Below are positions 28,784-34,032 of a stretch of DNA of 50,632 nt, piece by piece. Numbering within the stretch: the first letter of the stretch is position 1; every line of letters begins with the position of its first letter. A program made the translations under genes and the position numbers. Source of the DNA: an uncultured Caulobacterales bacterium (GTDB lineage: Bacteria > Pseudomonadota > Alphaproteobacteria > Caulobacterales > Caulobacteraceae); contig CAIOJR010000132.1 in assembly GCA_903858685.1 (NCBI GenBank), forward strand, positions 1-50,632, given 5' to 3'. Below the pieces are notes generated by a model. The model was not told the DNA's origin and did not search any database. It saw only the letters and a list, made by a program, of their open reading frames with translations.

Positions 28784-29752
28784 TCAGCCGCCGTAGAATC
28801 CGCGATACCAATCCACGAAACGGGGCAGGCCGTCCTCCAGCTTCACCTTGGGCGAATAGCCGGTCAGGGCCTTCAGGCGAGTGACGTCGGCATAGGTCTC
28901 GGTCACATCACCTGGCTGCATGGGCTTGAAGATCTTCTGTGCAGGCTTGCCCAGGGCGGTCTCCAGCACCTCGATCATGGTCATGAGACCGACCGGGCGG
29001 CTGTCGCCGATATTGAAGATGCGGTGCTCTCCCAGCTCGCCGGGACGGTCGAGCACGCCGAGAATGCCGTCCACAATGTCGTCAATATAGGTGAAGTCGC
29101 GGGCCATGCGCCCCTCGCCAAACACCTCGATCGGCTCACCAGCCAATATCTTCCGGGTGAAACTGAAATAGGCCATGTCGGGACGGCCCCATGGTCCGTA
29201 AACCGTGAAAAAGCGCAGCCCGCTCTGTGGAAACCCGTAAAGTCCCGCATAGGTTTCGCTCATCAGTTCCGCCGCGCGTTTCGTTGCGGCGTAGAGCGAG
29301 ACGGGCCGATTGACGGGATCATCCTCACGAAACGCGCCCGCCGCCGACCTGTCGCCATAGACCGACGACGAGGAGGCGTAGACCAGATGTTGCACGGACG
29401 GCGCATGGCGGCACGCCTCCAGCACCGATAAATGCCCCGCCAGATTGGCGCGTTCATAGGCGAATGGATTGTCGATGGAGTAACGCACGCCCGCCTGCGC
29501 CGCCAGATGAACCACCCCTGTCGCATCGGTTGACCTGACCAGAGCCCGGAACGCCTCGTGATCGGCAATATCCATCCGCACCATGCGAAATCCGGCCTGG
29601 GCGTCGAGATGAGCGGCGCGCGCCGCTTTCAGGGCCGGATCGTAATAGGCGTTGAACTCATCAACGCCCACCACGGCCTGACCGCGCGCCAGAAGACGCT
29701 GGCACACCGCAGAGCCGATAAAGCCCGCTGCGCCTGTCACAATAATGGTCAC
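28784..29752 (-). CDS. NAD-dependent epimerase, UDP-glucuronate 4-epimerase type
   Basis: A 322-residue extended short-chain dehydrogenase: NAD motif GAAGFIG (7-13), catalytic Ser in YASSSSVYG and Tyr-x3-Lys in YAATK, followed by the RFFTVYGPWGRPDMA segment typical of UDP-glucuronate 4-epimerases. It would convert UDP-glucuronate to UDP-galacturonate for surface polysaccharide. Other nucleotide-sugar epimerases/dehydratases share the fold, so the substrate is moderately certain. No glycosyltransferase genes are adjacent. Confidence 0.85.
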   Translation of the reverse strand: MTIIVTGAAGFIGSAVCQRLLARGQAVVGVDEFNAYYDPALKAARAAHLDAQAGFRMVRMDIADHEAFRALVRSTDATGVVHLAAQAGVRYSIDNPFAYERANLAGHLSVLEACRHAPSVQHLVYASSSSVYGDRSAAGAFREDDPVNRPVSLYAATKRAAELMSETYAGLYGFPQSGLRFFTVYGPWGRPDMAYFSFTRKILAGEPIEVFGEGRMARDFTYIDDIVDGILGVLDRPGELGEHRIFNIGDSRPVGLMTMIEVLETALGKPAQKIFKPMQPGDVTETYADVTRLKALTGYSPKVKLEDGLPRFVDWYRGFYGG

Positions 29753-29856: not shown

Positions 29857-30141
29857 TCAGCCACAAGGTGAATCCGTCGCCGCGGGTTCCTCGCTGATCG
29901 CCGCCCTGACGCCTCTTTCGGTCAGTCGGCAGACCAGCCATTCCGGCGCCAATGGATTGGAGAACCAACGCTCGGCCCATCCCTTGGCCAGGCAATTGCG
30001 GATCAGGTGAGGGCTGATCGACTGACCCTCTCCGTCAAAAAGCGGCAGTTTTCGCCCTGGCTGGTTCAGCCCCAGCCGCAAATAGCCCCGCTCAGCCTGA
30101 CTTGGCGCGCCTTTTCCCTGATTGCGATCCGGCTCAGACAT
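29857..30141 (-). CDS. Small conserved-looking protein, CtrA-box linked
   Basis: A 94-residue protein of unknown function. The N-terminal third is polar and disordered-looking. The rest has a compact helical pattern: HLIRNCLAKGWAERWF, then LVCRLTERGVRAAI, where the LTERG element resembles the wing of small winged-helix proteins. I chose the ATG at 30141 (MSEPDRNQ). A perfect CtrA box lies 24 bases upstream, and the divergent neighbour is tipN, so cell-cycle control of this gene is plausible. Its function is unknown. Confidence 0.6.
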   Translation of the reverse strand: MSEPDRNQGKGAPSQAERGYLRLGLNQPGRKLPLFDGEGQSISPHLIRNCLAKGWAERWFSNPLAPEWLVCRLTERGVRAAISEEPAATDSPCG

Positions 30142-30164
30142 GGTTATCCCCATCGATCAGCAAA

Positions 30165-30179
30165 TTAACCATAAATTAA
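30165..30179. promoter_or_regulatory. CtrA box (TTAA-N7-TTAA)
   Basis: TTAACCATAAATTAA is a perfect match to the CtrA consensus TTAA-N7-TTAA, and its left half is the stronger TTAACCAT. It sits in the 193-base divergent region between the small protein gene (24 bases from its ATG) and tipN (155 bases from its ATG). A GATTC (GANTC, CcrM methylation site) follows at 30205-30209. CtrA control is inferred. Confidence 0.7.
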
Positions 30180-30238
30180 ACTTTGCCTTCGGCTCAACCG
30201 GTGCGATTCGTCTTTTCTCTTATCTGAGGCGGAGTTAG

Positions 30239-30251
30239 CGTAAAAATTACG
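30239..30251. promoter_or_regulatory. AT-rich dyad in the tipN upstream region
   Basis: CGTAA-AAA-TTACG, a perfect five-base inverted repeat, 83 bases before the tipN ATG. It may be a regulator site or part of the promoter. Low specificity. Confidence 0.25.
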
Positions 30252-30334
30252 GTTGAATGCCAAGCTCGACCATCGTGCGCGCAGAACAGCCAAGCTCCGC
30301 TGGTTGATGTGCTCGTCTGGTTTCAAGGTCTCGC

Positions 30335-33043
30335 ATGAAGTTTAAGAAATCAAAGAAGCCTGATTTTCAGCCGCTGAACTTCACGCTTGATCCGGACCGG
30401 ACAGCGAATGGAGAGCGCACGCCGCGCCTTTCCGCTGGCCGGGACGAGTTGGCTGTGGCTGACTTTGTAACGCCGCTGGGCGGCGCCGGTCCCGCGCCGG
30501 GGATTGATCGCGACAAGGCCCTGAACCGCGAGAGCATGGTCGCGCGCTACGCCTATCCGGCCGCTGCGGCCGCCTCGGTGATCTGGGCGGCCTGCATGGT
30601 CACCTTTGCCCTGAGCTACAATACGCCGGATTGGGCTTTTGATTTTCAGCCGGTGCAGATCACTCTCCTGGTGATTGTAGCGGTCGCGCCGACCGTGCTC
30701 ATGGCCCTGACCGCCTATTCCATTCGTCAGAGTGCGCTTCTGACCGCCGAGGCAGAGCGCGCCCGCGCCGCCACGGACGCCCTGGTCGCCCCTGCGGTCC
30801 TGGCCGCCGGCGTCACCGGCAACGTGGTCAAGGATGTGCGCACCGAGATCAGTCGGGCCATGGCGGTGGCGGCGGAGGCGTCCCAGCAACTGAGCGTGCT
30901 GCGCCTGGCCCTGTCGCAGGAAAGCGACCGGATGAGCGCGACCGTGGCGGATGCGGAACGGGCGGCCCGCCTGTTGACCGCGAGCCTCAGTCACGAGCGG
31001 CTGGAAATGGGAACCCTTTCCGCAGAGCTCGACACGCGCGCCCAGGCGGTGGCGGGGTCGATCCAGCGTCAAGCCAAGATGGTGGCCGAAGCCTCCGATC
31101 TCGCCCAGTCTCAGGTTCGCGAAGCTGAAGCCGCTCTGGCGGCGCGCACGGCCGACCTGGCGGCGGCCGCCGCCGACGCCGGAGAACTGACCACTCTGGC
31201 CGGGCAACAGATCGGGCTTAATGCGGATCGCCTGGAGACCATGGGCAAGGCTGTTGAGCAACAGCTCAACGCTGTGTGGAAGGACATGGACGCCGAGCGC
31301 GCCCAGCTGGAAGGTATTTCTGAAAACCTGAGACTGGAAAACGCCGCCGTCGCCAATATGCTGGAAACCCACCGTGGCCAGCTTCTGGACGCGGTCGCCC
31401 ATGCCCGAGTCAGCACGAACGAAATCCAGGCCGCCGCCGCCTCCAGCGCAGAGACCCTGCGCAATCTGGTCGCCGAGGCGGCGTCTCAGGTCGGCGCGCT
31501 GGCCGATACCGCGCGCGCCGAACAGGACGCCATGGATGCCCAGGTTCGCGCCCGCCTGAAGCTGTTCGCCAGCGTCGTGGCCGACGAACGCGCCGCCATC
31601 GAGGCTGACAGCCGCCAGGCCATCGAAAGCCTGACCGACGCTGCAGAAGCCGCGCGCAACGCCGCCATGGAAAAGGCCAGCTCCGCCACGGCCGCTGTCA
31701 CCGACGATGCGCGAGAGGCCATAGAAACCTTGAGCCGAGCGGCCGATGACGCCAGGGCTTCCGCGCAGAACCATCTGGAGACAGCCCGCGAAGTCGCAGC
31801 AAACCACGCCGACGCCTCGCGCGCGCAAATGGAGCAATTGGCCGAAGCCGCCTATGCCGCCGGTCAGCGCGCTGATGAAATCTATGACGCGCGCATCGCC
31901 GCCGCACGCAGCCTGATCGAAGAATCCACCCGACTGGTCGAAGAGGCGGGGCTGCGATCCGCACAGAAGATCGAAATCGGGCTGACCGCTACGCGTAACG
32001 CCCTGACCGAACTTGAAGCCCTTCTGTCCGAGGTGGACGCCCGCGCCGGGCGCCTGCCCAATGAAGCCCAGGCCAGCGTTGAAGCCGTGCGCGACGCTAT
32101 TTCCAAAGGCGTCGAGGAACTGACCATCGCCGCCCGCCGCGCCGCTGAAGAAACGCAGGAAATCGACGCCGCGTTTCAGGATCGCGTGCGTCGCAACTAT
32201 GAAATGCTGTCGGACTCCGTGCGCCTGATGACGCAGGTCGCCAGCGACGCCGACGCCACGGCGCCCATGGCCCAGATCGAGCCCCCGGTCCTGAAGCCTG
32301 TCGAACCTGTGCCCGCCCCGCCGGAAATCGCCGCTGTTCTCGCCCGGGCAAAGGACGAGGCCGAAGCGGCCAACGCTGCTGCGGTCGAAGCCGAAGCGCC
32401 GCGGATGGCGGTTGGCGCCGGCGCTTCGACCATGTCTTCCGCCCCGGCGCGACGCATCGCCCATGACAATGGCGACGACGAAGGACCGCTGCTGAACCTT
32501 GGCGGCTCAACCCCATCGCCTGCCGCCGCCGCCCGACCCCGGCTACGCCTGACCGCCAGCGACCCGGCTGGCGATGACGTCATGAACGTTTTTCAGCCCG
32601 CGCGAACGGAACGCCGTCCGCGCGAGGATGAGGGCGACTGGACGTGGCGCGATCTGTTGAAGAATGTTGACGGCGGCGATCTGCCGACAGATGTCGCCCT
32701 CGCAAACCGCCTGATCAGCGAGATCGAAGCCCTGGGCATCGACACGGCGACCCTGCTGCCGCAAAGCCGCATCGACGAGATCGCCCGCGCCCTGAGCGAC
32801 GGCGACCTGGACGCCGGCCGAGACTCGGTCCGTCGACTGGCGCCCGCCGCCGTGCGCCGCCTGTCGCGCCGAATGGAGGCTGAACCCAATCTGCGCAGCG
32901 ATGGAACCGAGTTCACCCGCACATTCGGCGATCTGGTCGTGGACGCGCTGGCGCGCGGCATTGGCGCCGCGGCCGGCCTGCTCGGCTCAGACCAGGGCCG
33001 CATCTTCCTGCTGCTGGATGCGGCGGTCAGCCACACCGGCTGA
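30335..33043 (+). CDS. tipN: TipN-like polarity factor, membrane-anchored coiled coil
   Basis: A 902-residue protein (Caulobacter TipN is similar in length). A basic N-terminal segment (KFKKSKK) is followed by two transmembrane helices (about 75-95 and 107-130), then a very long Ala/Glu-rich coiled coil (about 135-650), a Pro-rich linker and a small helical C-terminal part (about 760-902). This matches TipN, which marks the new pole/division site and helps place flagellum and ParB/chromosome machinery. The ATG follows a weak AAGG site. It is followed by a dipeptide epimerase gene after 11 bases. Homology is judged by architecture and sequence recollection. Confidence 0.85.
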   Translation: MKFKKSKKPDFQPLNFTLDPDRTANGERTPRLSAGRDELAVADFVTPLGGAGPAPGIDRDKALNRESMVARYAYPAAAAASVIWAACMVTFALSYNTPDWAFDFQPVQITLLVIVAVAPTVLMALTAYSIRQSALLTAEAERARAATDALVAPAVLAAGVTGNVVKDVRTEISRAMAVAAEASQQLSVLRLALSQESDRMSATVADAERAARLLTASLSHERLEMGTLSAELDTRAQAVAGSIQRQAKMVAEASDLAQSQVREAEAALAARTADLAAAAADAGELTTLAGQQIGLNADRLETMGKAVEQQLNAVWKDMDAERAQLEGISENLRLENAAVANMLETHRGQLLDAVAHARVSTNEIQAAAASSAETLRNLVAEAASQVGALADTARAEQDAMDAQVRARLKLFASVVADERAAIEADSRQAIESLTDAAEAARNAAMEKASSATAAVTDDAREAIETLSRAADDARASAQNHLETAREVAANHADASRAQMEQLAEAAYAAGQRADEIYDARIAAARSLIEESTRLVEEAGLRSAQKIEIGLTATRNALTELEALLSEVDARAGRLPNEAQASVEAVRDAISKGVEELTIAARRAAEETQEIDAAFQDRVRRNYEMLSDSVRLMTQVASDADATAPMAQIEPPVLKPVEPVPAPPEIAAVLARAKDEAEAANAAAVEAEAPRMAVGAGASTMSSAPARRIAHDNGDDEGPLLNLGGSTPSPAAAARPRLRLTASDPAGDDVMNVFQPARTERRPREDEGDWTWRDLLKNVDGGDLPTDVALANRLISEIEALGIDTATLLPQSRIDEIARALSDGDLDAGRDSVRRLAPAAVRRLSRRMEAEPNLRSDGTEFTRTFGDLVVDALARGIGAAAGLLGSDQGRIFLLLDAAVSHTG

Positions 33044-33054
33044 GGCGCGCCACC

Positions 33055-34032
33055 TTGAAACTGGCCGTCACGCAGGAGACCTGGCCCATAGCGGGCGCCT
33101 TTCGCATCGCCAGGGGCGCCAAGACGCAGGCTCATGTCGTCGTGGCCGCACTGAGCGACGGCGCGCATGAAGGGCGGGGCGAGGCGGTTCCCTATGCGCG
33201 ATATGGCGAGACCATAGAGGGCGTCGTAGCGGACATCCACAGCCTGACAGACGAGATCCGGAACGGACTTGACCGGATCGGCTTGCAGTCGCGGCTATCG
33301 CCCGGCGCCGCGCGCAATGCGCTGGACTGCGCCTTCTGGGACCTTGAGGCCAAACGCGCAGGCAGACGCGCCTGGGAACTGGCGGGCCTGACGCGACTGG
33401 CCCCGGTGAAAACCGCCTACACGATCAGCCTGGACACGCCGGAAAAGATGGCCGAGGCCGCGGCCGCCGCCTCGCGTCGACCGCTGCTGAAGTTGAAGAT
33501 CGGCGGACCGGACGACCTGACCAAGGTCGAGGCCGTGAGGCACGCCGCCCCGCGCACGCGTCTGGTCGTCGACGCCAATGAGGCGCTGGATCTGGACGCG
33601 CTAAATCGTCTGGCCCCGGACTTCGCCCGGCTCGGGGTCAAGATGATCGAACAGCCCCTGCCCGCCGGCGAGGATGAGGCGCTGACAGATTATCGCGGCG
33701 ATGTGCCGCTATGCGCCGATGAGAGCCTGCATAGCCGGGCCGAACTCGATCACTGCGCGAGACTCTATCACGCGGTCAATATCAAGCTGGACAAGACTGG
33801 CGGCCTGACGGAAGCGCTGGCCCTGCGCGCCGCGGCCCGCGACAAGCGCCTGATGGTCATGGCGGGTTGCATGGTGGCGACCTCGCTGTCCATGGCCCCC
33901 GCGCTGCTGATCGCCCAGGGCGCAGAGGTTGTCGATCTGGACGGCGCCCTGCTCCTGGCGCGCGACCGCGAGCCCGGCCTCAGCATCACAGGCTCGATCA
34001 TCGCACCGCCATCTGTCGAGCTTTGGGGATGA
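33055..34032 (+). CDS. L-Ala-D/L-Glu dipeptide epimerase, enolase superfamily
   Basis: A 325-residue enolase-superfamily enzyme. Active-site residues are visible: Lys146/Lys148 (LLKLKIGG), metal ligands Asp173 (VVDANEAL), Glu199 (MIEQPLP) and Asp222 (LCADESL), and Lys247 (KLDKTGG). This KxK...DxN...E...D...K set matches dipeptide epimerases, which convert L-Ala-D-Glu to L-Ala-L-Glu in murein peptide recycling. The start is TTG at 33055; no ATG is available near the family N-terminus. It lies 11 bases after tipN and overlaps the MOSC gene by ATGA. A cytosolic role in cell wall recycling is likely. Confidence 0.87.
   Translation: MKLAVTQETWPIAGAFRIARGAKTQAHVVVAALSDGAHEGRGEAVPYARYGETIEGVVADIHSLTDEIRNGLDRIGLQSRLSPGAARNALDCAFWDLEAKRAGRRAWELAGLTRLAPVKTAYTISLDTPEKMAEAAAAASRRPLLKLKIGGPDDLTKVEAVRHAAPRTRLVVDANEALDLDALNRLAPDFARLGVKMIEQPLPAGEDEALTDYRGDVPLCADESLHSRAELDHCARLYHAVNIKLDKTGGLTEALALRAAARDKRLMVMAGCMVATSLSMAPALLIAQGAEVVDLDGALLLARDREPGLSITGSIIAPPSVELWG

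Follow-up and report, generated by a model that had tools for sequence, protein, structure and literature searches.

A conserved CtrA box paired with a GANTC site as a predicted control region of tipN in an uncultured Caulobacterales bacterium

A single CtrA box lies between two divergent genes in the genome of an uncultured Caulobacterales bacterium and raises the question of which of them it controls. The window, meaning the whole stretch of 50,632 nucleotides that was analysed, contains TTAACCATAAATTAA at positions 30165-30179 as its only TTAA-N7-TTAA, a predicted CtrA box assigned to neither strand, and the initial annotation was correct in both its sequence and its coordinates. On the minus strand, a small gene (29857-30141) encodes a 94-residue protein for which a winged-helix fold is predicted and which belongs to a family widespread in Alphaproteobacteria. 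On the plus strand, a tipN-like gene (30335-33043) encodes a protein of 902 residues with matches in 46 of the 60 genomes searched, its own included; we take it to be TipN, a name that no library model gives. The annotated distance of 24 bases from the box to the small gene is counted between position 30165 and the first base of the start codon at 30141. Cell-cycle control by CtrA had been proposed for both genes.

The TTAACCAT form of the CtrA box, given in the accessible part of PMC11527210, is present at 30165-30179 on the plus strand. The Hyphomonas CtrA consensus is TTAA-N7-TTAAC according to the accessible text of PMC7200025; its extra 3' C is absent from the box on both strands, and a perfect box means here a match to TTAA-N7-TTAA without that base. 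Dinucleotide shuffles give 0.02 expected occurrences per window, and two of 100 shuffles contained one. Throughout the genome, 23 occurrences were counted in 3.87 Mb, versus 17 for the reversed pattern used as a control. The full box alone is therefore weakly informative, and the case rests on conservation. Three of the 23 fall within 100 bases upstream of hemE (G000:C41:31396-31491, locus L086). The Caulobacter replication origin has the same CtrA-box layout, and the hemE cluster serves as an internal positive control. The genome encodes CtrA (NF045991, 416.7 bits, cut-off 350), the receiver domain of which matches the CtrA structure PDB 4qpj, as well as GcrA (PF07750, E 1e-55).

On the tipN side, 40 nt 3' of the box, a GATTC at 30205-30209 (no strand assigned) forms a CcrM (GANTC) site. 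Full boxes occur in five of the six genomes of the genus, against 0.003 expected from first-order Markov samples, and the sixth (G005) retains the box only in part. GANTC is found in all six, at -67 to -70 from the small-gene ATG, and the spacing between box and GANTC is 39-40 nt in each of the five genomes with a full box. All 15 letters of the box are identical in G000 and G002 despite diverged flanking intergenic sequence.

The arrangement extends beyond the genus. The 38 tipN upstream regions compared comprise the own genome and its relatives; among 40 tipN stretches, G038, G041 and G050 were left out as their tipN start could not be placed, and the start codon of the more distant tipN genes is uncertain. 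Boxes matching seven or eight of the eight letters, with a GANTC 27-42 nt after them (a range set after the spacings had been seen), occur in eight of the 38, versus 0.06 expected from first-order Markov samples that do not allow for the relatedness of the genomes. Profile searches with filters off detected the small gene in 10 of the 38. The composite is present in three of the 28 regions where this gene is absent (0.025 expected); these are G018, G023 and G032, representing three further genera, and the same search found no small gene in their tipN regions of about 2 kb, the G018 genome being only 82% complete. Persistence of the composite in genera devoid of the small gene indicates that the element tracks tipN. 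A motif CGA[AT]TCG, then a CTT-containing stretch, recurs flanking the composite in tipN regions. GANTC alone is not enriched upstream of tipN (24 of 38 regions, versus 29.4 expected), G012 and G046 have a full box without a paired GANTC, and 28 of the 38 regions lack even a seven-of-eight box in the scanned stretch. The absence of a convincing box from the other regions points to CtrA/CcrM control as a lineage-specific trait within the family. The region around 30165-30179 is thus, judged from its sequence, a well-supported prediction of a CtrA/CcrM control region of tipN. The earlier proposal of cell-cycle control stands as a prediction for tipN, for which a conserved box, a paired GANTC and genes for CtrA and GcrA are all at hand.

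The way in which this region would act can be modelled on known promoters. The GANTC upstream of tipN is conserved and the genome carries gcrA, and the box and GANTC probably form one composite region with tipN as its conserved client, which would combine CtrA activation with a GcrA/CcrM-type start. Phosphorylated CtrA would bind the box and activate a tipN start at about 30200-30204, which would place the 5' base of the box at about -35 to -39. The methylated GANTC would serve a second, GcrA/CcrM-type start some 25-35 nt further down, at about 30229-30240, and the two starts could yield two timed pulses of tipN transcription, similar to the P1 and P2 promoters of ctrA. The divergent small gene would perhaps share the control region without being its main conserved target. 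In the accessible text of PMC4287350, activating full boxes of Caulobacter have their 5' base near -35, or at -39 for ctrA P2, several cell-cycle promoters have their GANTC at -24 to -35, and repression has been proposed for a full box at -14 of ctrA P3. We lean slightly towards activation of tipN by CtrA over repression. If the GANTC marks the sole tipN start, the box would lie near -58 to -68, a non-standard activating position. The ctrA P1/P2 region of Caulobacter likewise carries a full TTAA-N7-TTAA and a GANTC upstream of one cell-cycle gene (PMC4287350, accessible part); the present region differs in that the gene is tipN, a divergent small gene is present and the spacing is 40 nt. A scan of 30120-30345 found no consensus sigma-70 promoter, and the combined promoter and terminator scan around these positions gave nothing useful.

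Control of both divergent genes by the single CtrA site, with equal or opposite sign, is the strongest competing reading, though a doubtful one. The two genes share one short intergenic region with one box, and full boxes were also detected in four of 44 other upstream regions of TipN-linked small genes (0.38 expected from first-order Markov samples), all in rhizobia-type contexts. However, the other 40 have no full box, and three of the four boxes belong to close relatives (L135, L150 and L151) and are not independent; L135 was added to the 44 by hand and its contig ends before the neighbour.

Less probable still, and rather unlikely, is that the small gene is the chief target of the box, through which CtrA would either activate a leaderless message or, if there is a leader, cover the -10 region and repress. 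The 5' base of the box, read on the minus strand, is 38-40 nt before the small-gene ATG in all five genomes with the box. Both modes have precedents in the accessible text of PMC4287350, namely the leaderless Caulobacter gene CCNA_01391, with a CtrA motif at -32, and the repression predicted for ctrA P3. Against a leaderless message, several genomes have purine runs resembling ribosome-binding sites in the stretch from the box to the ATG: a possible one here, GGGGA at 30147-30151 on the minus strand, and GGGAG or GGGGAGG at about the same place in G003 and G004, which suggest a leader on the small-gene message. With such a leader, the CtrA box would cover the -10 region. Among family members unlinked to TipN-like genes, full boxes are not enriched upstream of the small gene (one of 159, 0.44 expected from first-order Markov samples), and tipN retains the composite in regions that lack the small gene; exclusive control of this gene was rejected on the latter ground. 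The part of the earlier proposal that concerned cell-cycle control of this gene has consequently not gained specific support. That the motif is a chance or unrelated AT-rich element unused by CtrA is very improbable, since the genome-wide counts barely above the reversed-pattern control would allow it but the box is conserved with near-fixed GANTC spacing in five genomes and three further genera.

Beyond the tipN control region, the small gene has features of its own. Its dN/dS of 0.10-0.21 in five of five pairs gives it the appearance of a protein-coding gene under purifying selection. All ten aligned orthologs can start at the equivalent of 30141 and have M1 in common, so the annotated 94 residues are a better choice than the 98 obtained from an in-frame ATG at 30153, which was rejected. 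The description of the product as a protein with no known role agrees with the lack of any Pfam or NCBIfam match, a MarR sequence profile included. Scans of the family with Pfam, NCBIfam and PHROGs yielded no family, and a scan of 10 members returned only DUF6401 (two members, best E 0.0066) and GntR (one member, E 0.14). At least 566 relatives were confirmed in species genomes; a profile search found the gene in 127 of 387 Alphaproteobacteria genomes, and it is present in 16 of 249 Caulobacterales genomes. The conserved core reads QPGGKLPLFD..GQ.I...TIR.CI..GWAEPWF.NPLKPDWLVC.LT..GR.

AF2 models built from 10 and 51 sequences reached mean pLDDT values of 77 and 80. The protein is predicted to be winged-helix-like, hence of a DNA-binding type, with a helix-helix-hairpin-helix order and middling structural scores. 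In this order it is similar to MarR-like winged-helix proteins and to RPA3401 (PDB 2jtv), its structural match of best coverage (64 of 65 residues, Z 8.0, rmsd 2.3), the Z of about 8 being middling; it is shorter than MarR proteins. Foldseek with the model gave no E below 0.001, and the sequence search against solved chains gave matches at chance level, none of them convincing. The PDB fold searches provide ranked matches only, and folds outside the ranking are possible.

A divergent TipN-like gene, recognised with a profile built on the N-terminal membrane module of TipN, adjoins the small gene in all 15 Caulobacterales loci re-examined (L178-L192), and in the sixteenth genome of the order, G010, the two are also paired. 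On the other strand of the small-gene loci this profile found no match. Similarity to the TipN C-terminus was detected in 18 of 18 partner targets (16 distinct genes) and in none of a shuffled set. TipN-like divergent neighbours were found for 30 of the best 80 of 566 relatives, a ranking by likeness to the window protein and hence biased, and in seven of 123 class loci. The 123 are those of the 127 genomes left without G000 and G004, of the own genus, and G581 and G650, with fragmentary matches; class stretches ending at contig ends include L210, L238, L251, L266, L268 and L275. The majority of class members have neighbours other than TipN-like genes. Divergent MFS and CutA1 clusters comprise 44 and 40 of 218 small-gene loci (some genomes counted twice), and clusters of this size argue against one universal partner of the family. 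The sequence data point to a pairing that is strong in Caulobacterales and some other lineages and not universal. Outside Caulobacterales, the small gene often has a CutA1 or MFS gene as its divergent neighbour, as in L111 (2597-3124) and L168 (835-2289), respectively.

Of the 30 TipN-linked loci among the best 80 of 566, 17 have an Hpt gene following the small gene on its strand, compared with one of the 50 without a TipN link, L135, the contig of which ends before the neighbour. Such a gene follows in five of 15 Caulobacterales loci. The 30 class loci with flanks of 1.5 kb, all of them without a TipN link, have none; the other 93 of the 123 class loci extend only about 300 bases downstream, so absence of Hpt there is meaningless. 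Pfam confirms Hpt for two members. No Hpt match was found in the 50,632-base window. Hpt proteins after the small gene are almost confined to loci linked to the TipN superfamily, e.g., L328 (9750-10280) and L127 (3197-3772).

One tentative interpretation, which we hold to be possible rather than probable, is that the small protein acts as a regulator dedicated to polar scaffolds of the TipN superfamily. An ancestral alphaproteobacterial module of a gene for a TipN/GPR-like scaffold, a winged-helix gene divergent from it and an Hpt phosphotransfer gene would have linked a phosphorelay to the construction of the new pole. Most Caulobacteraceae would then have lost the winged-helix and Hpt genes; if true, this loss explains why the small gene went unnoticed in Caulobacter work. 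The interest of the small protein lies in its conserved company of TipN-type scaffolds and a phosphotransfer protein, and synteny suggests its gene as a partner of scaffold genes of the TipN/GPR type in several orders. The view of it as a candidate polarity factor is favoured by its association with TipN/GPR-like genes, and not by the box from which it had been derived.

The putative TipN of the window, of about 900 residues, has profile matches among its relatives, in a comparison that covered the N-terminal module of two transmembrane segments and the C-terminal domain. Partner frames reach 1787 residues in Roseibium polysiphoniae (L144/L328) and 1385 residues in a Phyllobacteriaceae genome (L329); both carry PF01442 domains and match the N- and C-terminal TipN profiles. 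RgsE has been described with PF01442 apolipoprotein domains (PMC7327166, accessible part), and the presence of these domains in the two long partners marks them as GPR/RgsE-like, judged from descriptions of GPR of Agrobacterium and RgsE of Sinorhizobium. In contrast to RgsE, the 902-residue window TipN has no PF01442 match. Similarity between GPR and TipN has been published (PMC8546619), and the two have been termed analogous (PMC13170164), both in the accessible portions of these papers. In rhizobia-like genomes, the intergenic regions of GPR/RgsE type at loci L135, L150, L151 and L171 contain full CtrA-type boxes on the upstream side of the small gene; L114 and L136 have one-letter variants.

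No description of a CtrA box upstream of tipN or of the small gene, or of the Hpt linkage, was found in searches of the open-access literature. The name tipN is absent from the accessible main text of PMC4287350 and from that of PMC3973325, and the main text of PMC4433202 contains none of SMc00190-192, rgsE or TTAA. The neighbourhood of TipN superfamily, winged-helix and Hpt genes is apparently unreported. In Caulobacter, loss of tipN lowers the activity of a CtrA-dependent reporter, more so with loss of cpdR (PMC7083601, accessible part), and control of tipN by CtrA would for this reason close a loop. The conserved CtrA/CcrM composite upstream of tipN thus provides a concrete candidate input to the timing of tipN transcription.

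Other genes border the locus. Downstream of the small gene, 28784-29752 on the minus strand encodes an NAD-dependent epimerase/dehydratase (PF01370, E 4.9e-58). A long antisense frame at 30350-32464 was rejected as a gene, being a GC-rich shadow of tipN. Directly downstream of tipN, 33055-34032 corresponds to a gene for a DgcA-type N-acetyl-D-Glu racemase (NF042940, 466 bits, cut-off 400).
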